Positions 4,472 through 36,201 of a stretch of 64,000 bases of DNA are shown here, piece by piece. This DNA is from Sinosporangium album (GTDB taxonomy: Bacteria > Actinomycetota > Actinomycetes > Streptosporangiales > Streptosporangiaceae). The DNA lies in contig NZ_FNCN01000001.1 of the NCBI RefSeq assembly GCF_900100605.1, positions 124,001-188,000 on the forward strand. The letters run 5' to 3'. Both the position numbers and the translations under genes were made by a program. The notes under the pieces are model-generated. The model made no database searches. It worked only from the letters and a program-made list of their open reading frames with translations, and was not told the DNA's origin. Positions within the stretch are counted from its first letter, which is position 1; every line of letters begins with the position of its first letter.

Positions 4472-4555
4472 TGCCCTAGCCTCTCGCACGTCGCACGGAC
4501 CTCCGGCGCCCGGTCCGCAGTTGGCGGACGGCATGTCCACAGTGTCGACGGGCCA

Positions 4556-4620
4556 GGTCGACCGGCCGGGTCGACCGGCCGGGCTGACCGGCCGGGCTGA
4601 CCGGCCGGGTTGACCGGTCT
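4556..4620. repeat. 13-bp tandem repeat upstream of htpG
   Basis: Five consecutive 13-bp units: ggtcgaccggccg twice, ggctgaccggccg twice, then the degenerate ggttgaccggtct. They lie between the divergent cobF and htpG genes, about 100 nt before the htpG start. Each unit contains the dyad accggcc/ggtc, so the array may fold or bind a regulator. No role can be read from sequence. Confidence 0.85.
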
Positions 4621-4721
4621 GGGCCCCCTCCTTAGGCTCGGGCCGATCACAGGCTGCCTCCCCCGGCCGACTCCTGCGGGGTTGCGGCCTGCCGTCCCGA
4701 CACACATCGAAGAGGGAGCCG

Positions 4722-6773
4722 ATGAGCGTAGACGCGACTGAAGAGACATTCAGATTCCAGGCCGAGGTGGCGCAACTCCTGGACCTGATGACCCATTCGC
4801 TCTACAGCAACAAGGAGATCTTCCTGCGTGAGCTGATCTCGAACGCCTCCGACGCGATCGACCGGCTGCGTTTCGAACGGTTCTCCCGGCCCGAACTCGC
4901 CGAAGAGGCCGATAGCGACGAGAAGCTCCGGATCCGGGTCGCGTTCGACCCGGAGGCCCGCACGATCACGGTGTCCGACAACGGCATCGGGATGAGCAGG
5001 GAGGAGGTGATCGGCAACATCGGCACCATCGCCAAGTCCGGCACCGGCGAGTTCCTCAAGAAGCTGAGCGGCGACCAGCGCGGCGACGCGGCGCTCATCG
5101 GCCAGTTCGGCGTGGGGTTCTACTCGGCGTTCGTGGTGGCCGAGCGGGTCGTGCTGACCACGCGCCGGGCGGGCGCGCCGCCCAGCGAGGGCGTGCGCTG
5201 GTCGTCGGACGGCAAAGGCGAGTACACCCTGGAGACCGTCCACGGCGACACCCGCGGCACCGCGATCGTGCTGCATCTGCGGGAGGGCGAGGACGACCTG
5301 CTGAACGGCTACCGCCTCCGGTCCGTCATCCAGAAGTACTCCGACCACATCAGTCTGCCGATCGTGATGGCGTCGGAGGCATCGGCCGACGGCGAGGCGG
5401 CCGATGCCGAGGGCACCACCCAGAAAACAGCCGAGGAAACAGCCGAGGAAACAGCCGAGGAAACCACCGTCAACCGGGGCTCGGCCCTGTGGACCCGCCC
5501 CAAAAGCGAGCTGACCGAGGCGGACTACCACGGTTTCTATAAGCACGTCAGCCACGACTTCAGCGACCCGCTCGCCTATCTGCACGCCAAAGTCGAAGGC
5601 CGCTACGAATACACGCTGCTGCTGTTCGTCCCCTCCCGGGCCCCCTACGACCTGTGGGCGCAGCAGCCGCGCCAGGGCGTGAAGCTCCACGTCCAGCGGG
5701 TGTTCATCCTTGAGGACAGCGGCCAGGTGCTGCCGCACTATCTCAGGTTCGTGCGCGGCGTCATCGACTCCGGCGATCTGCCGCTGAACGTCTCCCGGGA
5801 GATGATGCAGGGCAGCCGGGCCGTGGACCACATCCGCGGCAGCGCCGTCAAGAAGGTGCTGAAGCTCCTCAAGGACATGGCGGAGAACGACGCGGAGAAG
5901 TACGCGGCGTTCTGGAAGCAGTTCGGCGCCGTGCTCAAGGAGGGTGTCGCCGAGGACTACGGCAACCGCGAGGAGATCGCGGGGCTGCTGCGGTTCACCT
6001 CGACCTACTCCCCCACGCAGGAGCCGGACGTCTCCCTCGACGACTACGCGGGCCGCATGAAGGACGGGCAGGACAAGATCTACTACCTGCTCGCCCCGAC
6101 GCTCTCCGCCGCGTCGACCAGCCCGCACCTGGAGGCGTTCCGGAAGAAGGGCATCGAGGTGCTGCTTCTCGGCGAGGTCGTGGACAACTGGGTGGTGACC
6201 GGCCTGCTGCAGGAGTTCAAGGGCACGCGGCTGCAGTCGGTCGCCCAGGGCGTCCCGGACTTCGGCGACCTGGAGGACGCGGCGGAGAAGGAGGAGTCCG
6301 AGAGGGCCGCCGCCGACTTCGCGGAGCTGCTCGGCCGGCTGAAGGAGACCCTGAACGGCAAAGCCTGGGACGTGCGGGTGACGAGCCGCCTCACCACATC
6401 TCCGGCCTGCATCGTGGCCAACGAGGCGGAGACGGACTTCAGCCTGGCGCAGCGGCTGCGCGGATCGGGGCTGCCCAACCAGCCGGTCCTGGAGGTCAAC
6501 CCGCGCCATCCGCTGGTCGAGCGGCTGCGGCGCGAGCAGGACGAGGCGCGTCTCGCCGACTGGGCTCACATCCTCTTCAACCAGGCCGCGCTCACCTTGG
6601 GAGCGCGCCTGGACGACCCGGCCGATTTCGTCGGCCGCCTCAACGGCCTGCTCGTCACCCTGACGGGTGACACAGGCAGCACAGACGGCACAGACGGCAC
6701 GGACGGCACAGGCGACACAGACGGCACAGACGGCAGCCCCGGACACGGCGACCCGGGAGCCGAGCCCCGGTGA
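4722..6773 (+). CDS. htpG: Molecular chaperone HtpG (Hsp90)
   Basis: Cytosolic ATP-dependent Hsp90 chaperone. The 683-residue protein carries the GHKL ATPase blocks ELISNASDAIDRLR, DNGIGM and GQFGVGFYSAFVV, followed by the middle and C-terminal dimerisation regions. It is longer than the usual 620-640 residues because of two low-complexity additions. One is an acidic ETAEETAEE insert after the ATPase domain, encoded by three perfect 12-bp repeats at 5425-5460. The other is a C-terminal tail of TDG repeats encoded by 9-bp repeats at about 6670-6735. ATG 4722 follows GAGGGAG. The gene stands alone, with a 13-bp repeat array and cobF divergently upstream. Confidence 0.95.
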   Translation: MSVDATEETFRFQAEVAQLLDLMTHSLYSNKEIFLRELISNASDAIDRLRFERFSRPELAEEADSDEKLRIRVAFDPEARTITVSDNGIGMSREEVIGNIGTIAKSGTGEFLKKLSGDQRGDAALIGQFGVGFYSAFVVAERVVLTTRRAGAPPSEGVRWSSDGKGEYTLETVHGDTRGTAIVLHLREGEDDLLNGYRLRSVIQKYSDHISLPIVMASEASADGEAADAEGTTQKTAEETAEETAEETTVNRGSALWTRPKSELTEADYHGFYKHVSHDFSDPLAYLHAKVEGRYEYTLLLFVPSRAPYDLWAQQPRQGVKLHVQRVFILEDSGQVLPHYLRFVRGVIDSGDLPLNVSREMMQGSRAVDHIRGSAVKKVLKLLKDMAENDAEKYAAFWKQFGAVLKEGVAEDYGNREEIAGLLRFTSTYSPTQEPDVSLDDYAGRMKDGQDKIYYLLAPTLSAASTSPHLEAFRKKGIEVLLLGEVVDNWVVTGLLQEFKGTRLQSVAQGVPDFGDLEDAAEKEESERAAADFAELLGRLKETLNGKAWDVRVTSRLTTSPACIVANEAETDFSLAQRLRGSGLPNQPVLEVNPRHPLVERLRREQDEARLADWAHILFNQAALTLGARLDDPADFVGRLNGLLVTLTGDTGSTDGTDGTDGTGDTDGTDGSPGHGDPGAEPR

Positions 6774-6948: not shown

Positions 6949-8022
6949 TCAGATGACGGCGCGGAGGGTTCGGGCGGCGAGGCCGGGCGCCAGCCGTACT
7001 CCCGACCCGGAGCCGCCCAGGGCGGCGGCGAGGCCGGGCAGCCCGGGGGACGTGAGGACGACGGGCAGCCGGTCGGGGGTGTAGAGGTCGCAGAAGGCCC
7101 TTCCGCCGGTGACGAGGCCAGCGGCGTCGGGCAGCCGGTCGGCGAGCATGCGCGTGCCCTCCAGGATGTCGGCGTGGTCGGCCCTGCCGTCCACGCTCTC
7201 CGGGTCCGTCCCCCAGGCGTCGCGGCGGAAGCTGACGAGGGCCTGCCCCGCCGCGAGCGGAAGCACGAACAGGTCGTCGGCGACGAAGTAGACCAGAGGG
7301 TCGCCGAAGCGCACCGGCAGCCGCGCGTGCAGGGCGGCGATGCGTTTGCGTCGTGCTCCCGGGGGGTCTCCGAGTGCGACCGGCAGCGGCTCCGGCAGAT
7401 CCCACGGACCGGGCGCGAGAACCACCCTCCGGGCCCGCCACTCCCCTTCGGCCCGCAGCACGTAGCCCTCCCGGGAGGCGTCCACCCGCCGGACGCGCTG
7501 CCCGATCTCGACCGCCGTACGGCCGCGGCCTACGGCGGCCGACAGCAGGGCGTCGGCCAGGGGGCGGGCGTGGACGACCGCCCCCGGCTCATCGTGCGTC
7601 ACGAACACCTCGCCCGGAGCGGTGGACAGACCGGGCAGCATCTCCTCGACCCTGTCCCGCTCGGCCGCGGTGAGCGGGCGCAGCACGGCCGCGACCTGGG
7701 TGCCGAACCGCTCTAGGCGGTCGCGGGGCAGGAGGTACACGATGGGGACCTCGCGGAGGAAGGCCCCGGCGGCGGTGCCGCGCAGGTCGGCGTATCTCGC
7801 GCGGCTGTCGGCGACCAGCGCGCGATGCCCCGGTGTCGCGGCGATGGGGAAGTCCGCGCCGGCCGACCACGCGGTCGCGCCGCTTCCGGGGGCGTGCCGT
7901 TCCAGGACCACGATGTCCCAGTCGGGCCGCAGCCGGCCGGCCTCGTAGGCGACGAAGGCGCCCACGATGCCTCCGCCGACCACGGCCAGGTCCGCCGTCA
8001 ACGCCCGCCCCCGAGCCACCAC
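6949..8022 (-). CDS. DAO-family FAD-dependent oxidoreductase (hydrazine pathway)
   Basis: A 357-residue flavoprotein of the glycine oxidase/D-amino acid oxidase family. The dinucleotide fold VVGGGIVGAFVAYEA starts at about residue 14, a second FAD element is RRVVLAPGPW, and the end reads ALGGSGSGVRLAPG. In known hydrazine pathways a homologue oxidises the N-N linked lysine adduct so that the lysine half leaves as aminoadipate semialdehyde and a free hydrazino acid remains. That role is inferred here from the neighbours. It is the last gene of the operon. The GTG start at 8022 overlaps the cupin gene by 25 nt; a TTG at 8001 giving a 4-nt overlap is a fair alternative. Confidence 0.85.
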   Translation of the reverse strand: MVARGRALTADLAVVGGGIVGAFVAYEAGRLRPDWDIVVLERHAPGSGATAWSAGADFPIAATPGHRALVADSRARYADLRGTAAGAFLREVPIVYLLPRDRLERFGTQVAAVLRPLTAAERDRVEEMLPGLSTAPGEVFVTHDEPGAVVHARPLADALLSAAVGRGRTAVEIGQRVRRVDASREGYVLRAEGEWRARRVVLAPGPWDLPEPLPVALGDPPGARRKRIAALHARLPVRFGDPLVYFVADDLFVLPLAAGQALVSFRRDAWGTDPESVDGRADHADILEGTRMLADRLPDAAGLVTGGRAFCDLYTPDRLPVVLTSPGLPGLAAALGGSGSGVRLAPGLAARTLRAVI

Positions 8023-8342
8023 ACGCTGAAGACCTCAAGCGGCTCCGCCCCCGCCTGCACCTGGTGCGGAACCATGGACGGGAAGTAGACGGCGTCGCCG
8101 GGGCCGACCTCGATCTCCTCGCGGTCGGAGCGCACCGTGCCGGTGCCGGTGCGCACCAGCCACAGCTCGGCCACCTCGTGGACGTCGAGTTCGCTCACGG
8201 CGCCGGAGGGCACCACGAACCTGGAGCCTTGGAACGGCCAGGCCTGCGCGGGCTCCCCGGCTCCGGTGGAGATCTCCTCCACGACCATGCCCGACGGCGT
8301 CGCGTCCGCGGTGCCGTACCGGATTTTCACGGGTCGGGTCAA
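7998..8342 (-). CDS. Single-domain cupin, probable N-N bond forming partner
   Basis: A 114-residue small cupin. The two cupin motifs appear as SELDVHEVAELWLVRTG (H55, E59) and VGPGDAVYFPSMVPHQVQ (H93), so likely metal ligands are present although the first motif lacks the second histidine of a classical HxH. In s56-p1-type pathways a cupin domain fused to a MetRS-like domain rearranges the amino acid ester of N6-hydroxylysine into a hydrazine. Here it is a separate protein. It overlaps the lysine hydroxylase by 4 nt and the DAO-family gene by 25 nt. The function is inferred from this context. Confidence 0.82.
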   Translation of the reverse strand: MTRPVKIRYGTADATPSGMVVEEISTGAGEPAQAWPFQGSRFVVPSGAVSELDVHEVAELWLVRTGTGTVRSDREEIEVGPGDAVYFPSMVPHQVQAGAEPLEVFSVWWLGGGR

Positions 8343-9724
8343 CGTCCCTCCACAGGTGCGAGATCCAAGGGGAACGGGCCGTGCACCGGGATGTGGTCCC
8401 CGGGCGGCGGCGGGACCGCGCCGCGGTCCCGGTCTTGGTCCAACTCCGGCTGCCGGGCCCAGGTCACGGTGGTGGAGAAGCCGTCGAGGCGGTAGATCTC
8501 CTGGTCCGTCAGAGAATTGATCACTTGTGCGCTGCGCCAGGCGCCCAGGCTGAGATTGGGGTCGGCGATTCCATGCGTGCTCTCCGCCCAGTTCTGCACA
8601 TAGATGCGAAGGTGGTCAGGGCCGTCCCACTCCAGGGAGTAGTCCGGTCGTATCCGGAAGTCGCCGTGTTCGTTGACAAGTCGTTCCCGCAGGGGCTCCA
8701 TATAGTCGGGGAAGGGACTGCGGTAGCCCGTACAGAAGATCACCACGTCGGCGACCGAGCGTTCCATCTTCCCGGTGTCGCCCTCGCGCAGTGTCACCGC
8801 CAGCCCGGAGCCATGAGACGAGCCGTGCGAGCGCAGGTCCGTCACCCGGCGGTTCGGCAAAAGGTGGTGGCGCAACCGCCCTCCGGCGATGTCCAGCTCG
8901 TACAGCCGGCGATAGATCGTGCGCAGCAGCGTCTCCGATATGCCGTCGCTGGCCAGCCGCTGGTGCCGGAGCAGTTCCGTCCTGCGCTCCGGCGGCAGGG
9001 TCTGGAAGTGGTCCACGTACGGCGGCGCGAACCACTCGTTGCTGAACGGCGAGTCGTCGAGAGGCAGGAAGCCGACGCGGCTGGAGATCCACAGCAGCGA
9101 GGCGGGGAGTTCCCGATCGTCGGCCAGCAGGTGGTCGACGACCTCCGCGCCGCTCTGGCCGGCGCCGACGACCACGACGCGCCGTCCCCGCACGGCAGGC
9201 CGCACATGCAGCAGGTCATTGCTGTGCAGTACGTCGCGTCCCTCGAACACGGCGGCGAAGTCCGGCAGGGCCGGGACCCGGCCGGACCCGAGCACCAGAG
9301 CCGGGGCGGCGAACCGGCCTCCCTCTTCGCAGACGACCTCGAACCCCGCGTCGGCCACCTGGACGGATTTGACCCGCTGCCCCCAGTGGATGCCGGGCAG
9401 CTGGTCGGCCACCCACTGGTAGTACTGCTCGAATTCCTGCCGGGAGCAGCCGACCTGGTTGGCGATCAGCGAGCGGTAGATGCGGCCGTGGTGCACCAGG
9501 AAGTTGAGATAGGAGTAGCGGCTGGTGGGATCGATGAGTGTGACCAGGTCCTTGAGGTAGGACACCTGGAGACGGGCCCCGGGGAGCATCATCCCCGGGT
9601 GCCATTGGAATCTCGGCCGGGCTTCCAGGAATCGCGCCCGCAGACCGGCGACCGGTCGCGCCAGCGCGGCCAGACTCAGGTTCGACGGCCCCACCCCGAT
9701 GCCGACCACGTCACATTGTTCCAC
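8339..9724 (-). CDS. L-lysine N6-monooxygenase family enzyme
   Basis: FAD- and NADPH-dependent amine hydroxylase of the lysine/ornithine N-monooxygenase family, 461 residues. Visible elements are the FAD motif GIGVGPSNLSLAAL near residue 8, the substrate-region block LKDLVTLIDPTSRYSYLNFL, the NADPH motif VVVVGAGQSGAEV, and the FCTGYRSPFPDY block typical of these enzymes. It should make N6-hydroxylysine, though ornithine cannot be excluded from sequence alone. No siderophore synthetase is nearby. Instead a MetRS-like gene and a cupin flank it, which points to hydrazine formation. The GTG start at 9724 follows aaggaggt. Confidence 0.93.
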   Translation of the reverse strand: MEQCDVVGIGVGPSNLSLAALARPVAGLRARFLEARPRFQWHPGMMLPGARLQVSYLKDLVTLIDPTSRYSYLNFLVHHGRIYRSLIANQVGCSRQEFEQYYQWVADQLPGIHWGQRVKSVQVADAGFEVVCEEGGRFAAPALVLGSGRVPALPDFAAVFEGRDVLHSNDLLHVRPAVRGRRVVVVGAGQSGAEVVDHLLADDRELPASLLWISSRVGFLPLDDSPFSNEWFAPPYVDHFQTLPPERRTELLRHQRLASDGISETLLRTIYRRLYELDIAGGRLRHHLLPNRRVTDLRSHGSSHGSGLAVTLREGDTGKMERSVADVVIFCTGYRSPFPDYMEPLRERLVNEHGDFRIRPDYSLEWDGPDHLRIYVQNWAESTHGIADPNLSLGAWRSAQVINSLTDQEIYRLDGFSTTVTWARQPELDQDRDRGAVPPPPGDHIPVHGPFPLDLAPVEGR

Positions 9725-9749
9725 CGGACCTCCTTGTCGTTCGGAGCGT

Positions 9750-11402
9750 TCACCCGTGTGCCCGGCCGGGTGTCAGCAGGGGGCACGCGCCGACGAGATC
9801 TCCGGCCTTGAGCTCCGTCGCCATGTCGGGGCCGAGCGTGTTCCACCTGATCTCTCCGGCGGATCCCGGATGCCCGAGCGCCTTCCAGAGCTGGTCGCCC
9901 AGTTCCGGAGCGACGGGGTACAGGCCAGCCGAAAGCACAGCCGCCACCGCCAGTTCCGCGTGTACGGCACGGGCGAAAATATCGTGAAAGCGGAGCCGCC
10001 CAGTCAGATGTTCCGCGTCGTCGCCCGTCTCTTCGGCCGCGCGTACCAGCAGATCGAGTGCACGCACGGCCGTATGCGGCGAGAAGCGTTCGACCGAGTA
10101 GGCCTCGTCGACCACCCGCAGCGTGTCGGCGGTCAACGCGCGCAGTTCCCGGACGCGCCGGTCGGCGGAGCGGCCCCACACGGTCGGCGGCCCCCCGTCC
10201 CCGTCGTTCGCCGCCGCCTTACCGCACCGGCGGCCGAGGCCCGTCAGCCAGCCGCGCCACCGGGGGAACACGTCGTCGTAGAGAACAGTGCGCATTCCCG
10301 CCCAAGTGAACGTGGTCTGCGCCGCGACGGGCCTGGTCCAGGTGAGGTAGAGCCGCAGATGGTCGGCGGGAGTGGTCTCCAGGGCGTCCAGCAGCCAGAC
10401 GGCGTGGCGCCTGCTCGTGGAGAACTTCTCCCCGTCCAACCGGTAGAACTCATTGGAGATGAAATCCGTGGGCAGCGGCACGTCGGGGTCGTAGGCATGC
10501 ATGATCGCCGGGAAGAGCACGGCGTGAAAGTAACCGTTGTCGTAGCCGAAGCACTGGGCCACGCGCCGGCCAGGGCGCCACACGCCGGGGTGCCCCGTGC
10601 CGTCTGCACCCGCCGCCAGGTAGCCCGCCGCCATCTCGAACCAGACGTAGACGCGATGCCCCGGGAACTCCTCGACCGGCACCTCGACGCCCCACGTCGC
10701 CGGATGCGACACGGCGATCTCCGGCAGGCCGTCCGCCGCCATCTCGGCGCAGAGCGCGGTCAGGTGGCTGTTCATCCGGACCTGGCTCCAGAAGCGCCGC
10801 AACGGTGAGACATGCCGGGCCAGCGGAAAGTAGAGCCGCTCGCAGTCCCGCAGTTCGCAGGCCGCACCGCAGACCGTGCAGCGGGGGTCGCCGAGGTCGG
10901 CGCAGTCGTTGGGCCGTCCGCAGACCTCGCAGGCGTTGCCGCATGAACGCGTGCCGCAATGCGGACACGAACCGACGACGTAGGCTTCGAACGCCCAGCG
11001 GTCGCAAGGCACGCAATACGGCAGGGGCCGCACGCGCGGCACGATGTCCCCCCGGTCGACCAGGGTGCGGAAGATGCGGCGGGTGAGGTGCGCGTGGTGC
11101 GGGGCCTGGTCGGGGCGGCCGATGACGTCGAAGCGCACTCCGGCGCCCTCCCACGCGTCGACGATCCGGTCGCCGAACCACCTGGCCACATCCGCGGCCT
11201 TGGTGCCTTCCCGGACGGCGTGGGCCTCGGTGTAGCTCTGGTTGTCGTCGATGCCGGTCATCGTCGTCGCGCCGGGCGCACGCCTGCGCAGGTGCCGCCC
11301 CAGGATGTCGGCCGCCAGGTAGGGCCCGGAGAGGTGGCCGAGGTGGAGGTCCCCGTTCGGGGTGGGCGGGGTGGCGGTGATCAGCCAGGGCTCAGCGGAC
11401 AT
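9750..11402 (-). CDS. Methionyl-tRNA synthetase-like hydrazine synthetase subunit
   Basis: A 550-residue class I synthetase-like protein. It carries the adenylate-forming signatures HLGH (residues 20-23, HIGH motif) and KFSTS (326-330, KMSKS motif). Between them is a cysteine-rich zinc insert with many CxxC pairs (about C130-C187). In the s56-p1 and triacsin families such a domain, fused to a cupin, activates an amino acid and esterifies it to N6-hydroxylysine before N-N bond formation. A housekeeping metS is unlikely because the gene lies mid-operon between a hydrolase and a lysine hydroxylase. The start ATG 11402 follows GGGAGGAG and overlaps the hydrolase by 11 nt. The upstream in-frame extension to 11609 lies over the hydrolase and was rejected. 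Confidence 0.9.
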   Translation of the reverse strand: MSAEPWLITATPPTPNGDLHLGHLSGPYLAADILGRHLRRRAPGATTMTGIDDNQSYTEAHAVREGTKAADVARWFGDRIVDAWEGAGVRFDVIGRPDQAPHHAHLTRRIFRTLVDRGDIVPRVRPLPYCVPCDRWAFEAYVVGSCPHCGTRSCGNACEVCGRPNDCADLGDPRCTVCGAACELRDCERLYFPLARHVSPLRRFWSQVRMNSHLTALCAEMAADGLPEIAVSHPATWGVEVPVEEFPGHRVYVWFEMAAGYLAAGADGTGHPGVWRPGRRVAQCFGYDNGYFHAVLFPAIMHAYDPDVPLPTDFISNEFYRLDGEKFSTSRRHAVWLLDALETTPADHLRLYLTWTRPVAAQTTFTWAGMRTVLYDDVFPRWRGWLTGLGRRCGKAAANDGDGGPPTVWGRSADRRVRELRALTADTLRVVDEAYSVERFSPHTAVRALDLLVRAAEETGDDAEHLTGRLRFHDIFARAVHAELAVAAVLSAGLYPVAPELGDQLWKALGHPGSAGEIRWNTLGPDMATELKAGDLVGACPLLTPGRAHG

Positions 11403-12381
11403 GGGCGCTCCTCCCAGTCGTGACTCTGTGGATGAACCGGGCCAGGCGCCGGCGCACGCCGTCCAGGTCGTCCAGCCACGGGACGTGACCCGCGCCGGGC
11501 ACGATCTCGACGGCGCAGTCCCGCATCGCGGCGGCCAACTCCAGCGCGGACGGCTCGGCCGACCACGGATCTTCGGCCCCGTTGAGCACCAGCGCCGGGA
11601 CCGCGACACGGGCGGCGACCTCGGGCAGGTCGGGCCAGGGCAGCCGTCCGGCGAGGAAGGCCCGTACGGCGGAGAGCCGCCATGTCCGGGAGCAGACCTC
11701 CAGGAAGAGCCGATGCCTCGGCCCGAGAACTGGAAAGGTCACGGCCAGGTCGGCGACCAGAAGGCCGCGCAGGGTGGCGGCGTCGCCCGGCGGGTCCGCG
11801 GAGAGCGCGGAGAGCGCGGAGAGCGCGGACTGGGCCGCTCGCGCCCGCTCCCCGAGGGGGCCGACCAGGGCGCGGAGCCGTTCCTCCAGGAGCGCCGGGT
11901 TGTCGATGCGGTCGCGCACCTGACCGGAGATCAGCACGATGCCCGCCGGGCGCACCGCGCCGGCCGCGGCGGCGGCCCGCAGCACCGCCCAGACACCGGC
12001 GGAGTGTCCGACGAGGACGACCGGGCCGGCGCCGCCCTCCCGGTCCAGCAGCTCGACAAGCCGGTCGGCCTGCCGGGCGCACGGGTCGCCTCCCGGATCG
12101 CACCGCGAGGAGGCATAGGCCGTCCGCCAGGTCGAGGGCAGCGGTAGCTCCGCGAGGGTCTCCGCGCCGAGCCCCGGCCCGCCCGGAGCGAGAAGCGCCG
12201 TCGGGGCCGCGGGGGCTCCAGGGCCGGCTCCGGGACCGGCTCCAGGGCCCACTCCGGGACCACTCGACCTCCTCATGACGGGGACTCCAAGGCCGGGTCC
12301 AGGGCCGAGTCCAAGGCCGGGTCCAGGGCCGGGTCCAGGGCCGGGTCCAGGGCCGACTCCGGAGCCGCGCGACCCCCTCAT
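11392..12381 (-). CDS. Alpha/beta hydrolase of the biosynthetic cluster
   Basis: A 329-residue alpha/beta hydrolase. The nucleophile elbow is VGHSAGVWAV, the acid lies in NGAEDPWSAEP, and the catalytic histidine in GAGHVPWLDD, so the triad is intact. ATG 12381 overlaps the SET gene stop by ATGA. The first 75 or so residues are a glycine/proline-rich stretch built on 12-bp DNA repeats, and a near-copy of the start context recurs at ATG 12276, which may be the real or a second start. A further in-frame repeat encodes SALSALSALSA. Possible roles are release of a thioester or ester intermediate, or amide hydrolysis; the substrate is unknown. Confidence 0.85.
   Translation of the reverse strand: MRGSRGSGVGPGPGPGPGPGPGLGLGPGPGLGVPVMRRSSGPGVGPGAGPGAGPGAPAAPTALLAPGGPGLGAETLAELPLPSTWRTAYASSRCDPGGDPCARQADRLVELLDREGGAGPVVLVGHSAGVWAVLRAAAAAGAVRPAGIVLISGQVRDRIDNPALLEERLRALVGPLGERARAAQSALSALSALSADPPGDAATLRGLLVADLAVTFPVLGPRHRLFLEVCSRTWRLSAVRAFLAGRLPWPDLPEVAARVAVPALVLNGAEDPWSAEPSALELAAAMRDCAVEIVPGAGHVPWLDDLDGVRRRLARFIHRVTTGRSAHVR
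12288..12361. repeat. 12-bp tandem repeats encoding a Gly/Pro-rich leader
   Basis: About six units related to ggccgggtccag in the 5' end of the hydrolase gene. They encode GPGPGPG on the minus strand. Because 12 is a multiple of 3, changes in copy number keep the frame. The motif tcatgacggg occurs at both ends of this block, which suggests that the gene start was duplicated. Confidence 0.75.
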
Positions 12382-13007
12382 GACGGGACGGCCGAGCGGT
12401 GCCGCTCCACCACGACGACGCTGCCCCGGCGCAGCGGGATCTCCTGAGGCACGCGCTCCGCCGCCCTCAGCGCGGGGGCCATGCGGCGGCGCCACGCCGA
12501 CACGACCTCCCGCGGCGGCTCGCCCGCGGGACCCGCCGCGCCCGCACGACCGGCCGACCCGACCGTTCCGCCCGTTCCTCCCGACCCTCCCGATCCGGGG
12601 CGGACGACGCGCGCGCACTCGCGGGAACCGCACGCGCAGGCGAACTCCCACGGATCGTCGTAGCGGAACGTGCGGTAGTCGCAGGTCACCTCCTCGCCCG
12701 CGTGGATGTCGCGTACGGCGATGCCTCCGGCGAGGCCGTGGTCCAGAACCGCGGCCTCGCATGAATGGTTGAAAAGGTGCGCGCCTCCGCAGGGCAGGAT
12801 GAGGCTCCGGTCGGACAGCCGATATCCGAACTCGTCGAGCCACTCCAGCACGGCGGACGGCATGCCGTACTGCTCGTCGGCAGCCCACGTGCGGCACCCG
12901 GCGCACGGCCCCCAGACGACGGTGCCCTGGCGGATGTCGCGCAAGGCGATGAGGCCGGTGCCCGCGATGGCGCTGAACCCGGGGTACAGGGCGGAGTTCA
13001 GCATCAC
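12378..13007 (-). CDS. SET-domain protein in a biosynthetic operon
   Basis: A 209-residue protein with a SET methyltransferase core. It has the NHSC block (residues 80-83, in HLFNHSCEAAV), GEEVTCDYRTF with the catalytic tyrosine (about Y111), and a post-SET zinc site with three cysteines (CACGSREC, 124-131). A glycine/alanine-rich linker and a basic C-terminal tail follow. SET proteins use SAM to methylate lysine, usually in proteins. A place inside a lysine-using metabolite operon suggests a small molecule, carrier or cluster protein as target, but this is inference. GTG 13007 overlaps the ATP-grasp stop, with ATG 13004 as alternative, and the 3' end overlaps the hydrolase by ATGA. Confidence 0.85.
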   Translation of the reverse strand: MMLNSALYPGFSAIAGTGLIALRDIRQGTVVWGPCAGCRTWAADEQYGMPSAVLEWLDEFGYRLSDRSLILPCGGAHLFNHSCEAAVLDHGLAGGIAVRDIHAGEEVTCDYRTFRYDDPWEFACACGSRECARVVRPGSGGSGGTGGTVGSAGRAGAAGPAGEPPREVVSAWRRRMAPALRAAERVPQEIPLRRGSVVVVERHRSAVPS

Positions 13008-14305
13008 GCGATCCCGATCCCGAGGATCCGCTCAAGGCGGCTCTCGGCGTCGGCGACGGCGTCGTCGTCGCACCCCACCACCAGGTAGCGCCACTTGCCG
13101 TCGACATCGAGGGTGTCGGCGGTGAGTACGGCACGGGCCGGGGCGGCCGGGTCCGACAGCCCCTCCGCTCCGAGCTTGGCCACCGCGCCTGCGAAGTCGA
13201 GGCCGGCCGCGCCGTGCCGTACATCCGCCCGCCAGCGCACCGGCGAGTCCCCGGACCGCAGCCGACGCGCCAGTTCTTCGAGGTAGGTGCCTCCGGTGCG
13301 GCGCACGTTCGCCTCGGTCACCACGTAGCCGCCGTCGTGGACGCCGCAGTCGACGTCGTAGATCCCGCGGTAGCCGCGCTCCCGCAGCCAGCCGCCGACG
13401 GCGTGCGCCGCCACGACGAGGGCGTGGTGGCGCGGCCCTTCGCGGGCCGGGGTGACCATGCCGGTCCACGCGTTGTTCACGGTGCGCTGGTCGCAGGTGT
13501 AGAACTCGGTCACTCCTCCGTCCTCGACGAGCATCTCCATGCTGGGCGTCGCCGTGAACGGCAGGAACTCCTCGAACACCCAGCCGCAGCCCCGGAGGGG
13601 CTGCCCGGCGACGGCGTCGTGGACCTGCTCCTCGATGGTGCGCTCCGCGTCCCGCCGGATCACGGCGTTCCCGAACCCGTTGGACGCCCGGTTGGTCTTG
13701 ATGATCACGGCCTCGCGCGTGCCGAGAAAGCCGCCGATCCGCTCGGCGAGCTCGGCGACGGTGGCGGCGTGGCCGCCGTCCGCGACGGGCAGCCCCAGAC
13801 CGGCGGCGACCTCGCGGAACCCCCGCTTGGTGTTGATCAGCCGCAGCGCCGCCACGACCGCGTCGTCGGGCGGGTCGCCGTACGGCAGGAGCCGGACGCC
13901 CCGCCGGCGGGCGAACTCCAGCACCGGGGCGTCCAGGACGAAGGGCAGCAGCTCCTCCCGCTCGGCGACGCGGTCCAACGCGCCGAGGTCGGCGGCGACC
14001 TCCAGCGCGTGTGCACCGCGCACCTCGGGCGGGGCGACGATCTCGACCCGGTCGACGTCCAGGTCGATGACGGACGCCACGTAGTCGCGGAAGACCGCAC
14101 TGCACGGAGCGAGCATGACGACGCAGTCCCCGGGGTGCGCCTGCCAGAGCTTGCGGGGGGTCACGGCGGCCATCGCGCGGCGGTAGGCCTCCGTCGGCGC
14201 CTCGACCATGATGTCGTTGACGATGTTGGCCAGGATGGCGCGGCTCGTGCGGCTCGTGCGGCCCGGTCGGCCTGGTCGGCTCGGCCGGCCCGGTCGCGTG
14301 GTCAT
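13004..14305 (-). CDS. ATP-grasp peptide ligase, PGM1-like
   Basis: A 433-residue ATP-grasp ligase with a pre-ATP-grasp N-terminal region, like the PGM1-type ligases that join amino acid units with ATP. Visible parts are the ATP-binding lysine strand EAVIIKTNRASNGFGNAV, the grasp segment WVFEEFLPF, and the metal-binding end YDVDCGVHDGGYVVTEANVRRTGG. It probably activates a carboxylate and forms an amide bond between pathway building blocks, for example the hydrazino acid and an amino acid; this is inference. The extreme N-terminus is a GRPSRPGRPGR repeat. ATG 14305 overlaps the methyltransferase stop by 4 nt. Confidence 0.87.
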   Translation of the reverse strand: MTTRPGRPSRPGRPGRTSRTSRAILANIVNDIMVEAPTEAYRRAMAAVTPRKLWQAHPGDCVVMLAPCSAVFRDYVASVIDLDVDRVEIVAPPEVRGAHALEVAADLGALDRVAEREELLPFVLDAPVLEFARRRGVRLLPYGDPPDDAVVAALRLINTKRGFREVAAGLGLPVADGGHAATVAELAERIGGFLGTREAVIIKTNRASNGFGNAVIRRDAERTIEEQVHDAVAGQPLRGCGWVFEEFLPFTATPSMEMLVEDGGVTEFYTCDQRTVNNAWTGMVTPAREGPRHHALVVAAHAVGGWLRERGYRGIYDVDCGVHDGGYVVTEANVRRTGGTYLEELARRLRSGDSPVRWRADVRHGAAGLDFAGAVAKLGAEGLSDPAAPARAVLTADTLDVDGKWRYLVVGCDDDAVADAESRLERILGIGIA

Positions 14306-15042
14306 GCCTCCACCTCGCGGGTGGCCGTGAAGATCGCGTGGCCGGCGTACATCCAGGCCACGTCGACCTCGCAGAAGCCCGCCTCACGCAGCCAGTCCAC
14401 GTGCTGCGCCACCGTGGAAGGCTTGTCCACAGGGTCGGGCCAGGGCAGGCGGAAGTGGTTCCATTCCGTTCGCTCGAACGCCGCCCACGCGTCGGGCCCG
14501 CCGTACAGCGTCTCCGACGCGTGCCGCACGGCCGCCTCCCACTGGTCACCGGCCAGCGTGCGGGCCCGCCGCCCCGGCGTCTCCACCAGGTCGGCCATGA
14601 CGAAGACGCCGCCCGGTTCGAGCATGGCGTGGATGTCGCGATAGAGCGCCCTCTTGCCGTCGCCGTCGAGGTGGTGCACGGCGAGCGACGTCATCACCCC
14701 GCCGTACAGCGTTCCCTTCCGCCACGCCGACCCCTCAAGGTCCGCCTGCACACGTGAGATCCGCTCGGCGTACGGCGCCAGCCTCCGACCGGCCGCCTCC
14801 AGCATCTCCTCCGAGCCGTCCAGCAGTGTCACCCGCGCGCCGGGAACACGGCTCAGGTATTCCTCGGCGAGCCGTCCCTCTCCGCAGCACAGGTCCAGGA
14901 CATGCGCGACCGGGAGGTCGCGGAGCAGATCGCACACCGTGGCGACCTGCTCCCGGCGCCTGGGCACGAAGGCGTCACCGTACTTGATGAACACGTCTGT
15001 ATCGGACAGCTCCCAGCCGTCGGCTGCGGGGGACTCCGTCAT
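14302..15042 (-). CDS. Class I SAM-dependent methyltransferase
   Basis: A 246-residue small-molecule methyltransferase. Motif I is VLDLCCGEGRLAEEYL, followed by the acidic residue at the end of strand 2 (VTLLDGSEEML) and a motif II/III region MTSLAVHHLDGDGK. It likely N- or O-methylates an intermediate or product of the cluster; the position cannot be predicted. It overlaps the ATP-grasp gene by ATGA and lies about 160 nt downstream of the aminomutase gene. It is the first member of the tightly coupled eight-gene run down to the DAO-family oxidase. Confidence 0.88.
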   Translation of the reverse strand: MTESPAADGWELSDTDVFIKYGDAFVPRRREQVATVCDLLRDLPVAHVLDLCCGEGRLAEEYLSRVPGARVTLLDGSEEMLEAAGRRLAPYAERISRVQADLEGSAWRKGTLYGGVMTSLAVHHLDGDGKRALYRDIHAMLEPGGVFVMADLVETPGRRARTLAGDQWEAAVRHASETLYGGPDAWAAFERTEWNHFRLPWPDPVDKPSTVAQHVDWLREAGFCEVDVAWMYAGHAIFTATREVEA

Positions 15043-15202
15043 CTACGCACCTCCAGGGGCGTGGAGTTCTCGGCGTTCGGATTGAGCAGTGCGTGTCGGT
15101 GGCAGTGCGTGTCAGTGCGTCGCGGTGTGTGCGCGATCTCCAGGGCGCGCCGCCGAGGGCGCACGGCGTGTGGATCGTCTCCCCTGCGGCGGGCGGCGGC
15201 TT

Positions 15203-16258
15203 TCAGCTCCGCTCGGCGGTGGGCGCCGGCGGATACACGTGCTCCTCGTCCCACGGATCGGTGACGCGGTGGGAGTCGCCGTCGGCCCGGATGTAGGTGG
15301 GGCCGATCGGCACCTTGCCATGGCCGCCGGGTATGTCGAGCACGTAGGTCGGCTGGCAGACGCCGGACACCCGCCCCCGCAGCCTCCTCACCAGCTCCTG
15401 GCCCTCGCCGACGGTGGTGCGGAAATGGCTGGTGCCCTGCGCGAGATCACCGTGGTGGAGGTAGTACGGCTTCACCCGATTGACGATCAGCGTCCGGAAC
15501 AGGTCCTCCAGCGCCTCAGGCGTGTCGTTCACGCCCCTCAGCAGGACCGTCTGGCTCAGCAGAGGGATGCCACCCCGGCTCAGGCGGCTCAGCGCGGCCC
15601 GAGCGGCTTCGCCGATCTCCTGACTGTGATTGGTGTGGACGACCACCCACACCGGAGTGTCGGTGCCGAGGGCGGCCACGAGTTCCTCGGTGATGCGGTC
15701 GGGGTCGACCACGGGCACCCGCGTGTGGAACCGGATCACGTTGACGTGCTCGATCGCGTCCAGCGCGGCCATGATCGGCCGTAGTCGGGCCGGCGATATG
15801 ATCAACGGGTCGCCGCCGGTGAGAATGACCTCCCACACCTGCGGGTGCGTACGGATGTAATCCAGCGCGGCCTCCATTTCGGTCGCGCTGAGCATCCCCT
15901 CCCCTGGGCCGACGACCTCGCGCCGGAAGCAGAACCGGCAGTAGACCGGGCACAGGTGCATCGGTTTGAGCAGCAACCGGTCCGGATAGCGGTGGGTGAT
16001 CCCCTTCACCGGGGTGAAGGGGTCGTCGCCGATCGGGTCCAGCCGTTCCTCGGGAGTAGTGACGAGTTCGGCCGCCGTCGGAATGAACTGCATGGCGACG
16101 GGGTCGTCTCGATCCCTGATCCGGTCCTGCATCGCACCGGTGATACTGATCGCGTACTGCTTTGCGACGTCGCGGATTTCGACAAGGGCGTCTTCGGCGA
16201 TGAGGTCGTTCTTCAGCAGGGAGTCCGGGGTTCGGATCGTTTTCGGGCGGCGAGGCAT
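15203..16258 (-). CDS. kamA: Lysine 2,3-aminomutase (radical SAM)
   Basis: Radical SAM, PLP-dependent enzyme that interconverts L-lysine and beta-lysine. The 351-residue protein holds the CxxxCxxC iron-sulfur motif (C103, C107, C110 in HLCPVYCRFC), the SAM-associated GGDPL block, and the PLP-lysine region LDIPGGHGKVP. It is shorter than the 416-residue clostridial KamA but in range for KamA/EpmB-like relatives. There is no epmA or efp gene nearby, and the gene sits in a lysine-using cluster, so a biosynthetic role is favoured. ATG 16258 follows ggaaagg; the in-frame extension to 16570 is unlikely. Confidence 0.88.
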   Translation of the reverse strand: MPRRPKTIRTPDSLLKNDLIAEDALVEIRDVAKQYAISITGAMQDRIRDRDDPVAMQFIPTAAELVTTPEERLDPIGDDPFTPVKGITHRYPDRLLLKPMHLCPVYCRFCFRREVVGPGEGMLSATEMEAALDYIRTHPQVWEVILTGGDPLIISPARLRPIMAALDAIEHVNVIRFHTRVPVVDPDRITEELVAALGTDTPVWVVVHTNHSQEIGEAARAALSRLSRGGIPLLSQTVLLRGVNDTPEALEDLFRTLIVNRVKPYYLHHGDLAQGTSHFRTTVGEGQELVRRLRGRVSGVCQPTYVLDIPGGHGKVPIGPTYIRADGDSHRVTDPWDEEHVYPPAPTAERS

Positions 16259-16606
16259 CGCATCACCTTTCCTCGTGACATGGCCACTGCGGAGGCGGAG
16301 TACGCCGGGGCACCGGACATCCAGCGAAAATCCAGAGTCCGTGAACTGGGCCGTCGCATACCGACACGCCGGCACATGGCGGATCCGTGGAATTGCACGA
16401 GCATGGGCACGGTGATTCAACGCAGCATATGTCGGAACACTGCGAAAACCTTGAAACAAACGACACGTGATCTCAGGTGATGCACAGAGCGTGCGGCTTG
16501 CCACTCCGAGGCAGCGGCTGTGCGCGCCGACGAGAAAAGTGTTCCGGCGCCGCCGACCACGGTTCTCCACATAGAGAAGAACACTTACATGATCGCTGTG
16601 ACGCCA

Positions 16607-16636
16607 AGCCTATGGAATCGCACTCGCGACCGTCAA
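16607..16636 (-). promoter_or_regulatory. Candidate sigma70-type promoter for the kamA operon
   Basis: On the minus strand TTGACG (16636-16631) is followed after 18 nt by TAGGCT (16612-16607), matching the actinobacterial -35 and TANNNT -10 patterns. It would drive kamA and the downstream biosynthetic genes. Pattern match only. Confidence 0.35.
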
Positions 16637-16835
16637 GAGGCTAATGGCAAGATGATGCTCGAAAGAGCAGGAATATGCCTGACCGCAAACCCGTCGCCCA
16701 TATTTTCGGGCGACCTGCCCGATCACATGGAACACCTTTATGCCGATACAGACGGACCTGCGCACACCCTCTCTCTAAAGTCACGCTGCGTATTTTTAAA
16801 TTAAAGCAGCACGGCAGCCGGAACTCGAATAATGG

Positions 16836-16856
16836 GCGCACCGATCGATCGTGCGC
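16836..16856 (-). terminator. Possible terminator after the MFS gene
   Basis: Short dyad gcgcac (16836-16841) and gtgcgc (16851-16856) just past the MFS stop codon. On the minus strand it leads into the AT-rich ccattattcg. The stem is short, so this is weak. Confidence 0.3.
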
Positions 16857-16869
16857 ACCGACCCGGGCC

Positions 16870-18132
16870 TCAGGCGGAACGGCTTCGCGAGAGCAGGGCG
16901 GAACCGAAGACGGCCGCGACGAGCGTGCTCGCGCAGGCGACCGCGAAGGCCGCCTCCAGCGACTGGGCCGCCAGCAGACCCCCGATCGCGGCGCCGACAG
17001 GGAGACCGGACATGTTGATACTTGAGGACACGGCGAGGACCTGTCCCAGGCGGGCCGGATCCGTCATGCGCTGACGGAGGGTCAGCACACTCACGTCGAT
17101 GGGCCCGCCGAAGGCCCCGATCGTCAGCAGCGCGACGGCGAGCGCCACCACTCCTGCCCCGGCGATTCCCGGAACGAAGGCGGCGGTCATGAGGACAAGC
17201 CCTATGCCGATGATCCGGTGCTCCCGCCCGATCACGCTCAGCCTCCCCGCGACCAAGGCGCCGACCGCCCCGATCACCCCCATCGCCGCCCAGATCACCC
17301 CGGTCATCAGGTCGGCGTCGCCCTTGCCGAACTCCTCCGCGAGCAGGACCGGGGTGACGACGACGAAGATCCCCCAGCTCACCATGTAGAGCGAGTACGA
17401 CACGGCGAGTCCCCGCAGCACCCGGTGCCGCACGACATAGACGACGCCTCTGGCCGACTCGCGCAGAAGGGAGGAGGACGCCTGCCGCGAATCGCGCGCA
17501 GGCCGGCTGCGCAGCAGCGGGACGAGCGCGACGACGGAGACGAGGTAGAGCACGGACACGACGGTCAGGGTCGGGCTTCCGCCGAGGAGGCTCATGAGTG
17601 CTCCGGCCGCCACCGGCCCGAGTACCTCCGCCACGCCGAACACGCTCGTGTCCAGCGCGTTCGCCCGGTCGAGGGCGCGGCGTGGGACGAGGCGCGGGAT
17701 CAGCGTCCGCACTCCGGCCAGGCTCAGCGGACTGGTCAACGAGTAGAGGAAGGCCACCGTCAGCAGGAGCTGCGGGCTGAGGAAGCCGAGGGGCTGCGCC
17801 AAGGCCGTCAACGCCACCACAGCGGCGCTGAGAACGAGGTCCACGACCAGCGCCGAGACCGACCCGAAGCGATCAAGAAACGCTCCCGCGATGGGACTGA
17901 CCACAAATCCCGGGGCGAAGGCCAGGAACGCCACGACTCCGGCCAAGGACGCCGAATCAAATTGCTGGATCGTGTACAGAACGAAGACCAGCGTCATCAT
18001 CTCGGCGGCGAGACGGCTGAAGAATGCGGCCACGATGAGCTGTGCCATGTTCGGCAGCCTCAGAACCCGGCGGTAGCTCAACGCGACGGCGCTGTCCGGT
18101 CCGTCGAATTCCTCTTGTGCTGACTGCGCCAT
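16870..18132 (-). CDS. MFS transporter, probable product exporter
   Basis: A 420-residue major facilitator superfamily protein with about 12 hydrophobic segments. A motif A-like loop is seen in AGAFLDRFGSVSAL, and a second GRLSVIGREHR loop starts the C-terminal half. It resembles drug-efflux permeases of the MFS_3/EntS type. As the upstream gene of the minus-strand cluster it is the natural candidate for product export or self-resistance. The start ATG 18132 has GGAG 8 nt upstream; a GTG at 18147 is possible. A promoter-like element and a large inverted repeat lie just upstream. Confidence 0.88.
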   Translation of the reverse strand: MAQSAQEEFDGPDSAVALSYRRVLRLPNMAQLIVAAFFSRLAAEMMTLVFVLYTIQQFDSASLAGVVAFLAFAPGFVVSPIAGAFLDRFGSVSALVVDLVLSAAVVALTALAQPLGFLSPQLLLTVAFLYSLTSPLSLAGVRTLIPRLVPRRALDRANALDTSVFGVAEVLGPVAAGALMSLLGGSPTLTVVSVLYLVSVVALVPLLRSRPARDSRQASSSLLRESARGVVYVVRHRVLRGLAVSYSLYMVSWGIFVVVTPVLLAEEFGKGDADLMTGVIWAAMGVIGAVGALVAGRLSVIGREHRIIGIGLVLMTAAFVPGIAGAGVVALAVALLTIGAFGGPIDVSVLTLRQRMTDPARLGQVLAVSSSINMSGLPVGAAIGGLLAAQSLEAAFAVACASTLVAAVFGSALLSRSRSA

Positions 18133-18173
18133 CGGCAGAAGCTCCACTCGTCACAGGCCGGAAACCCACCATG

Positions 18174-18200
18174 ATCATAATCATGGCCCCGCCGCGTCAA
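18174..18200 (-). promoter_or_regulatory. Candidate promoter of the MFS gene
   Basis: The minus strand reads TTGACG (18200-18195) and TATGAT (18179-18174) with a 15-nt gap, or ACTTGA with 17 nt. The -10 lies inside the AT-rich dyad atgatcataatcat (18171-18184), which could be an operator. The start codon is about 40 nt downstream. Confidence 0.4.
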
Positions 18201-18219
18201 GTGCAGCTCAGAAATCCCT

Positions 18220-18252
18220 GACTTTCGGTCCTTGTCAGAGTGACCGAAAGTC
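18220..18252. promoter_or_regulatory. Inverted repeat, candidate operator
   Basis: Perfect 11-bp arms, gactttcggtc (18220-18230) and gaccgaaagtc (18242-18252), around an 11-nt centre. It sits upstream of the MFS promoter, in the region between the biosynthetic cluster and the divergent DoxX-like gene. Its length and symmetry fit a dimeric regulator site. No regulator gene lies in the cluster, so the protein would come from elsewhere. Confidence 0.5.
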
Positions 18253-18565
18253 CGGTATACACGCACGGCGAACCTCGGGCACCTAGGACAGAGCAGACTT
18301 TTCTCCGCCCTTCCCCTCCGGCTCCATCGTCCGCCGACACGGCCATGCGACCGCCGGCCCCGGCCATATCAGGGGCGGCGGCCCGACGCGACGGCCGCCG
18401 GGATCGCCGCCGCGAAGGGCGTCCAGCCGCACACTCCCAAGGGCTCGCCCCTGCCCTCTCACACCGCCCCCATATACGACAGCGGCAATGGTGTCGATTC
18501 ACCAATCCAGAAGAAACGGTCAAGCTATATTAGACCCGGCAAACCCCCCAACCAAGGAGATAGCC

Positions 18566-19090
18566 GTGTTTCGGCTGAACCAATCGCATTCACACGAGAC
18601 CCATCCCCCCAGCTCCCTGATCAGTGCGAAAGCCCAGGTATCCGCCATTCTCCAGAAACACTCTTCCGCCATCATGCGAGGCGCCCTCGCCTTAGTGTTC
18701 CTCTGGTTCGGCGCATTGAAGGTGGCACACCTCAGCCCGGTCACCGAACTGGTCGCCGACACACTGGCGTTCGTGCCCGTACCATCCTGGTTCGCGGTGC
18801 CCGCGCTCGGCGTGTTCGAGATCGTGGTGGCCCTGGCACTGATCACCGGGCGGTGGCTGAGGCCCGTTCTGCCGCTCCTCCTGCTCCACCTGATCGGGAC
18901 GTTCCTCGTACTGGCCCTCCACCCCGACATCGCCTTCAAAGACGGACACCCGCTGCTGCTCACGATCGAAGGTGAATTCGTGATCAAGAACCTGGTGCTG
19001 ATAGCCGGGACCCTGGTCGTCGCCGTCACCCTGCCGCCCCGGAGGAAAACAGCCCACCCGGCGGACGTGCCGTCGGCGCAGCAGTCCTGA
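18566..19090 (+). CDS. DoxX/DUF417-like membrane protein
   Basis: A 174-residue membrane protein with about four hydrophobic helices. After a polar N-terminal stretch it has ALALVFLWFGALKVAHLSP, PALGVFEIVVALALITGRW, VLPLLLLHLIGTFLVLAL and NLVLIAGTLVVAVTL. The W-F-G-A-L-K pattern and the GVFEIV helix fit DoxX/DUF417-type proteins, whose roles in redox or thiol stress are poorly defined. GTG 18566 follows aaggaga. A TATATT element at 18526-18531 could be its -10. The gene is divergent from the biosynthetic cluster and is probably independent of it. Confidence 0.7.
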   Translation: MFRLNQSHSHETHPPSSLISAKAQVSAILQKHSSAIMRGALALVFLWFGALKVAHLSPVTELVADTLAFVPVPSWFAVPALGVFEIVVALALITGRWLRPVLPLLLLHLIGTFLVLALHPDIAFKDGHPLLLTIEGEFVIKNLVLIAGTLVVAVTLPPRRKTAHPADVPSAQQS

Positions 19091-19684
19091 CATGGCAGTC
19101 CCCGCAGAACCGCGGCCCCGGCTCATCCGCGAGCCCGCCGCACACCCCCGGCACCCACACCCGCTCAACCGGCGAAGAGTCGGCCGCGGCCGGGGTCCGC
19201 GGCCCGTATCCCTCCAGATCGACCTAGGGTAAGCGCCACCAGCTACCCGTATTCCTGACGAGCGACACGGTGGAACGCCATCCACCACGCACATCCTTGG
19301 CCTCGCAGCCAGTTCGCTCAGGGTGAGCGGCCGGCAGTACTCGGAGCCGGCCGTGGCGAACAGCCCACCCCACGGCCCACAGACACGGCCCACAGACACG
19401 GCCCACAGACACGAGCCACAGACACGGCCCACCAATACGGCCCACTGACACGGCCTGATCCTCGCCGCTGAACAACCGCCGCGAGGTCCACGTGCTGCCG
19501 TTCACCGACGGGCAAGGGGCCACACCAACGAAGCTTGTTAACACCGTCAACGTAAGATCTATGTCGCAGACACCTACCTCCGTGTACTCTTTCGAAGGCG
19601 CAGTGCTCTCCTCACGTGCACTATGGGAAGCCTGTCACTCACTGTTGGCTTCAAACGCCTTCCGCGGGCTGGGGAGAATGAGGA
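19091..19684. other. Intergenic region upstream of the defence operon
   Basis: About 590 nt with no convincing gene. It holds a small dyad gccgcgg/ccgcggc (19183-19203) that may terminate the DoxX-like gene, a 13-bp tandem repeat array, and a relatively AT-rich stretch at about 19530-19600 that probably contains the operon promoter. I could not assign a clear -35/-10 pair. Confidence 0.6.
19371..19455. repeat. 13-bp tandem repeat array upstream of the defence operon
   Basis: About six and a half units of cacggcccacaga. The first three are perfect and the later ones drift (cacgagccacaga, cacggcccaccaa, tacggcccactga). It ends about 230 nt before the kinase-helicase start. There are no spacers between units, so it is not CRISPR. 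Confidence 0.85.
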
Positions 19685-25921: not shown

Positions 25922-25971
25922 ATCGCAGTATCTGAATCGCAGTATCTGAATCGCAGTATCTGAATCGCAGT
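25916..25971. repeat. Four perfect 14-bp tandem repeats at a gene junction
   Basis: atctgaatcgcagt occurs four times in a row at 25916-25971 and is followed by a partial copy. The first unit contains the TGA stop of the kinase-helicase gene, and the array ends 45 nt before the drmD start. Because 14 is not a multiple of 3, copy number changes the phase of the intergenic sequence but not the upstream protein. Confidence 0.92.
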
Positions 25972-26016
25972 ATCCGCAGAGACGACACCATCGACCACGA
26001 CACGAGGACACCCCCG

Positions 26017-36165: not shown

Positions 36166-36201
36166 TCCGTTTCCCTCCCACCAACCCCAGGAGGTCCCCC
36201 C

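Follow-up and report, generated by a model that had tools for sequence, protein, structure and literature searches.

Negamycin is described as an antibiotic that targets the ribosome, and its deoxy relatives as promoters of nonsense-mutation readthrough (PMC12797225, PMC10296333). Kitasatospora purpeofusca NRRL B-1817 is a negamycin producer, and its reported cluster includes genes for the KinJ homologue NegJ, N-methylation, lysine hydroxylation and beta-lysine formation (PMC12154649). The same report presents NegJ as a heme enzyme that makes hydrazine acetic acid from glycine, and raises as a possibility that KinJ is interchangeable with azaserine-, triacsin- and N-nitroglycine-type enzymes. 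A lysine-dependent route to hydrazinoacetate has been reported for s56-p1: Spb38 yields N6-hydroxylysine, Spb40 N6-(carboxymethylamino)lysine and Spb39 hydrazinoacetate. Genes for a lysine monooxygenase, a cupin, a MetRS-like protein and an oxidase together provide hydrazinoacetate to the s56-p1, triacsin and azaserine pathways (PMC11705231). For the related cupin RHS1, N-N bond formation was shown (PMC8664883).

Here, we analyze a stretch of 64,000 nucleotides (nt) from Sinosporangium album (contig NZ_FNCN01000001.1, positions 124,001 to 188,000 of the forward strand), called the window, in which a run of ten genes occupies the minus strand from 6949 to 18147. Comparative evidence indicates, with a probability that we put at about 0.7, that this run encodes a pathway of the negamycin type that draws its hydrazine from another source, has no C5 hydroxylase and leads to a 5-deoxynegamycin-type product.

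Results

The core of the cluster matches the negamycin cluster

A search of 100 relatives with the ATP-grasp ligase of the run gave distant matches only (about 30% identity over long stretches). Homologues were found in genome G118 (47% identity) and on a Streptomyces sp. SAT1 plasmid (37%), both surrounded by the same gene set. A three-sequence ATP-grasp profile detected seven Streptomycetaceae genomes at 459 to 610 bits, the next match scoring 291, and a nine-sequence profile applied to one genome per species recovered K. purpeofusca NRRL B-1817. Among 341 genomes of its own family, only the window's genome had an ATP-grasp profile match at E ≤ 1e-60. A methyltransferase alignment yielded no match in 351 genomes of another family, a set that contained no positive control.

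The K. purpeofusca cluster (L104, on the same contig as L084) encodes KamA, a JmjC/Cupin_8-like protein, a methyltransferase, an ATP-grasp ligase, a SET protein, a FemAB/GNAT-like protein, a hydrolase, an MFS protein and a long open reading frame (ORF) without recognizable domains. The window proteins are 78% (KamA), 71% (methyltransferase), 74% (ATP-grasp), 62% (SET) and 55% (hydrolase) identical to their counterparts. Because the two clusters share this core, the product class can be named. The first-pass annotation of this DNA had not recognized the gene set, a claim that does not survive the 55 to 78% identity to the K. purpeofusca core; its proposal of a small peptide-like hydrazine made by ATP-grasp chemistry appears to be right. 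The match also led us to reject a wholly unknown cluster. An s56-p1-, azaserine- or pyrazomycin-type product was discarded as well, given the negamycin-like core and the absence, among the scanned proteins, of nonribosomal peptide synthetase (NRPS), carrier or saccharopine dehydrogenase-like genes.

The domain-less ORF beside the K. purpeofusca core is recognized by neither Pfam nor NCBIfam. KinJ is likewise described as lacking known domains, with C468, R497, M498, N501, H504, H541, R550/R551 and R570 as named residues (PMC12154649). Using these named positions rather than the KinJ sequence itself, we found seven of nine residues identical at one constant offset in 8/8 rows, C468 and R550 being the ones that differ. 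In addition, Burkholderia KinJ homologues reportedly cluster with a ferredoxin gene (PMC12154649), and a homologue of the ORF (33% identity) on a Burkholderia plasmid has a ferredoxin gene in the same cluster. By position and residues, we identify the K. purpeofusca ORF as the predicted NegJ. On a Burkholderia stagnalis plasmid (L125, NZ_CP156687.1), a KinJ-family homologue is accompanied by an AMP-binding enzyme, a C45 peptidase, the ferredoxin FdxA, a carrier protein and a ketosynthase.

Two predicted hydrazine sources alternate on one scaffold

The window encodes a lysine N-monooxygenase, a MetRS-like protein and a zinc cupin, the three components that define the lysine-dependent module (cupin type). 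The best solved relative of the cupin is RHS1 (5uqp), and its metal-site residues D63, H65, E69 and H103 are all conserved in the window.

We compared 16 distinct loci that have both the core methyltransferase and the ATP-grasp ligase; the presence of the methyltransferase in 16/16 thus results from selection. A scan of one genome per species returned 21 loci, of which the 11 with the methyltransferase were counted. The window, L035, L037, L085 and L087 were added, and loci on the same contigs were counted once (L103/L083, L104/L084, L110/L088 and L117/L086). We left out L107 to L109 and L115, which have KamA and the ATP-grasp ligase without methyltransferase or module (L115 being a 7.7-kb contig), L118 to L123 with their distant ATP-grasps, L089, which has no methyltransferase, and more distant ATP-grasp neighborhoods, which gave no methyltransferase match. 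One of the loci counted, L106, comes from a metagenome bin with the name Paraburkholderia, possibly through a binning error.

Within the stretches compared, all 16 loci have exactly one hydrazine source, with no case of both or of neither. Eight are of the NegJ type (L103, L104, L085, L087, L110, L112 of Allorhizocola, L113 of Lentzea and L116 of Dictyobacter) and eight of the cupin type (the window, L105 of S. ossamyceticus, L106, L037, L111, L114, L117 and L035). The HLGH and KFSTS motifs of the MetRS-like protein are intact in all eight cupin-type loci, and a DAO-type oxidase accompanies each module. The cupin is a separate protein in the window's clade and is fused to the MetRS-like protein in the SAT1 clade. 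In genome-wide searches, NegJ had no match in the window's genome; the same query was positive in 5/5 NegJ-type genomes and 0/3 cupin-type genomes.

The ATP-grasp and methyltransferase trees each require a minimum of four source switches; for the methyltransferase, the bootstrap range is 3 to 5, and no more than two switches are forced by the starred branches by themselves. NegJ of K. purpeofusca clusters with the NegJ proteins of the distant L112/L113 clade (100/100). We consider, at roughly even odds, that hydrazinoacetate supply is a plug-in, with the nitrite/heme NegJ and the lysine/O2 module having replaced each other on several occasions within a common scaffold, both in Actinomycetota and outside this phylum, that the window version is a dedicated deoxynegamycin source, and that the SET protein is a methyltransferase of small-molecule pathways serving biosynthesis or self-protection. 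On this plug-in reading, the window cluster would have lost its hydroxylase or never had one.

Several related loci deserve mention. In the Dictyobacter arantiisoli locus L116, a negamycin-type core and a NegJ homologue occur together in a member of the Chloroflexota. In a second clade (L035 at 14110 to 28057, L111 to L114 and L117), KamA is distant (CPQYCGHC) and a FemAB-like protein is present, often along with another ATP-grasp; the JmjC hydroxylase was not found in these loci, which are candidates for leucyl-deoxynegamycins. L107, L108, L109 and L089 have KamA and ATP-grasp pairs 56 to 77% identical to the negamycin-type core, with neither methyltransferase nor hydrazine module; an EamA transporter adjoins the pair in L107, L109 and L089, and a DAO-like oxidase is found in L107 and L089. 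These pairs possibly make another beta-lysine product. L038 (G118:C16:51000-70999) is a further cluster, in which a PGM1-type ATP-grasp lies beside a SAT1-type KamA (60%); it includes genes for a SAM synthetase, a rhodanese and a luciferase-like protein, and the same genome also holds L037.

Proposed pathway and product

In the proposed route, the monooxygenase would generate N6-hydroxylysine, to which the MetRS-like protein would esterify activated glycine. The zinc cupin would rearrange the ester to N6-(carboxymethylamino)lysine, from which the DAO would release hydrazinoacetate by cleavage. After N-methylation of hydrazinoacetate by the methyltransferase, the ATP-grasp ligase would join methylhydrazinoacetate to beta-lysine supplied by KamA, yielding a 5-deoxynegamycin-type hydrazide (C9H20N4O3, calculated [M+H]+ 233.161) for export by the MFS protein. 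All reactions, substrates, stereochemistry and the product itself are predictions from sequence. Glycine and hydrazinoacetate are the putative partner and product of the module because it exchanges with NegJ. The ligase could also join beta-lysine to a different hydrazino acid, if the MetRS-like protein used another amino acid or the DAO cleaved elsewhere. MetRS-like specificity does vary (Gly, Ala, Ser, Glu and Tyr), and Apy10 is reported to cleave an alternative bond (PMC11705231). We nevertheless find this variant unlikely, since over the 16 loci the module replaces NegJ, which is reported to make hydrazine acetic acid from glycine, beside orthologous methyltransferases and ligases.

The JmjC-like ORF of the negamycin cluster is a candidate C5 hydroxylase. 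Its family has conserved HRE and WHVG motifs, and the best Foldseek matches of a structural model of moderate confidence (pLDDT 61.6) were the YcfD, NO66 and MINA53 oxygenases, with good E values and low TM-scores of 0.2 to 0.3 over the query; as modeled, the family resembles YcfD/NO66 2-oxoglutarate oxygenases. A JmjC-type hydroxylase occurs in 7/16 loci, six of the NegJ type (L116 weakly, at 30%) and one, L037, of the cupin type. The window's genome has no homologue (best E value, 0.69), six of the eight genomes searched being positive, and a 5-deoxynegamycin-type product is therefore predicted. The cluster might instead make negamycin itself, if an unrelated oxygenase from another part of the genome hydroxylated C5. 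The core enzymes are indeed close to the negamycin ones, and L037, in which the cupin module and a JmjC-type hydroxylase coexist, indicates that the cupin route is compatible with hydroxylation. Against this stand the lack of a hydroxylase homologue in the window's genome and, in the stretches compared, in the two nearest cupin-type relatives, L105 and L106, making negamycin an improbable product.

The window KamA is 78% identical to that of K. purpeofusca, and the C3 configuration is on that ground weakly expected to be that of negamycin rather than the 3-epi form. For the same reason, 3-epi-deoxynegamycin was not our first choice, but we keep it open. The SAT1 clade, with its distant KamA (30%) and FemAB-like gene, would be a better candidate for 3-epi-type deoxynegamycins than the window, whose predicted product would share with such compounds the lack of the hydroxyl group.

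Two methyltransferases could act on the hydrazine. The SET protein is present in 15/16 loci, being missing in L105. The absence of the class I methyltransferase from the KamA/ATP-grasp loci without a hydrazine module (L107 to L109 and L089) favors this enzyme, rather than the SET protein, as the one acting on the hydrazine. Leucylnegamycin is a known co-metabolite (PMC12797225). We speculate that the FemAB-like protein of K. purpeofusca makes it and that the hydrolase removes the leucine; of these two genes, the window retains the hydrolase only.

Several observations weigh against the proposed pathway. MetRS-like relatives are reported to use Ala, Ser, Tyr or Glu (PMC11705231, PMC8664883), and Apy10, a homologue of the DAO, acts on the alternative C-N bond (PMC11705231). 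An unrelated hydroxylase may be present elsewhere in the genome. The window's genome lacks the FemAB-like gene found in K. purpeofusca, the window MFS protein is only 33% identical to its negamycin-cluster counterpart and not clearly orthologous, and the SET protein is not explained by the proposed route. Finally, in the ATP-grasp tree the cupin-type window enzyme lies beside the NegJ-type K. purpeofusca group with unstarred support (82/94).

Gene organization and surroundings

All ten genes show a high-GC coding signal, and domain scans with Pfam and NCBIfam (Table 1) agree with the functions that the first-pass annotation had listed for this minus-strand run. The KamA assignment exceeds the TIGR03822 cut-off of 396.25 bits, and the ATP-grasp ligase has profile matches to PGM1 (3wvq, 1.4e-24) and the ligase 8ynd. 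The methyltransferase gene, the DAO gene and the six genes between them form a chain with overlaps of 4, 4, 4, 11, 4 and 25 nt, the sole gap (25 nt) separating the MetRS-like and monooxygenase genes, which bears out the earlier view of a single unit. The KamA gene lies 160 nt upstream of this chain and the MFS gene another 611 nt upstream. As had also been noted, there is no polyketide synthase (PKS), NRPS or carrier domain: a Pfam scan of 27 proteins of the window, in which 53 to 64 kb was barely covered, showed none. Rfam and tRNA scans gave no match each, terminator-like sites were no more frequent than in shuffled sequences, and a promoter scan returned one weak promoter-like site.

Table 1. 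Genes of the run in the window, with supporting matches and proposed roles
Gene product	Position	Strand	Evidence and proposed role
MFS exporter	16870..18147	-	MFS_1 4.5e-35; start possibly 18132
KamA-type lysine 2,3-aminomutase-like radical SAM enzyme	15203..16258	-	TIGR03822 488.8 bits, CxxxCxxC; putative beta-lysine supply
SAM methyltransferase	14302..15042	-	Methyltransf_25; proposed hydrazinoacetate N-methyltransferase
PGM1-type ATP-grasp ligase	13004..14305	-	PreAtp-grasp; proposed beta-lysyl hydrazide bond formation
SET-domain protein	12378..13007	-	SET PF00856 5.9e-9; NHSC motif
Alpha/beta hydrolase	11392..12381	-	Abhydrolase_6 2.1e-8, Hydrolase_4 (S33); possible aminoacyl hydrolase
MetRS-like half of putative hydrazine synthetase	9750..11402	-	tRNA-synt_1g 7e-70; HLGH, KFSTS
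Lysine N6-monooxygenase	8339..9724	-	Lys_Orn_oxgnase PF13434 3.2e-103
Zinc cupin, putative N-N forming half of hydrazine synthetase	7998..8342	-	Cupin_2; best solved match 5uqp
FAD oxidase (DAO)	6949..8022	-	PF01266 2.4e-26; proposed hydrazinoacetate release

The hydrazine set is found in many unrelated clusters (PMC11705231), and in the window it might adjoin the negamycin-like core by accident, each serving a product of its own. This is very improbable. The hydrazine genes are chained with core genes, and the same set and core recur together in eight loci, in two arrangements and once on a plasmid; because the same genes also cluster in unrelated genomes, the grouping is not due to chance. 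Moreover, four KamA and ATP-grasp loci without the methyltransferase (L107 to L109 and L089) have neither module, the fifth, L115, being on a short contig.

Outside the cluster, a tetrapyrrole methylase gene (PF00590, CobF-like by eye; 3707 to 4705, minus strand) lies just beyond HtpG (4722 to 6773). On the other side, a defense-like island adjoins the cluster (19685 to 38340, plus strand). It encodes a protein kinase-DEAD helicase fusion with an MrfA zinc-binding domain (PADLOC DruE/PD-T4-6 matches), a DpdE-like helicase (1644 bits), a DrmMI/Eco57I-type methylase, an AAA/DUF4357 protein and a UvrD-like helicase.

Discussion

Our analysis turns an unrecognized cluster into a concrete product prediction and provides sequence candidates for deoxynegamycin biosynthesis. 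It also points to two unrelated routes of N-N bond formation having been exchanged in nature within a single scaffold; the 16 loci make interchangeability directly testable in the negamycin family and suggest that the ligase and methyltransferase could accept hydrazinoacetate from either source. The window cluster is unusual in the kind of hydrazine module that it carries and in the hydroxylase that it lacks. If the proposal is true, this version is dedicated to making deoxynegamycin, which belongs to the readthrough-active side of the compound family. We recognized no description of a cupin-route negamycin-type cluster in titles and abstract openings, a coverage that leaves out most subscription journals, including the original negamycin-cluster paper; an earlier description may therefore exist.

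Compared by family rather than by sequence, the s56-p1 (Spb38-40), triacsin, azaserine and N-nitroglycine modules combine, like the window, a monooxygenase, a cupin, a MetRS-like protein and a DAO. They differ from it in that the window cupin and MetRS are separate proteins and the downstream genes are negamycin-like rather than NRPS or PKS genes. RHS1 of Rhodococcus jostii (5uqp) is, like the window cupin, a stand-alone zinc cupin with the same four metal-site residues; its cluster uses glutamate and has a saccharopine dehydrogenase homologue, whereas the window has a DAO. The negamycin (neg) cluster shares the methyltransferase-ATP-grasp-SET gene order with the window. In contrast, a search of the window's whole genome found no NegJ, no JmjC-type hydroxylase and no FemAB-like gene, and the beta-lactamase-like gene of the neg cluster is not in the window, to which that comparison was confined. 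In NegJ's stead, the window has the monooxygenase, cupin, MetRS-like and DAO genes.

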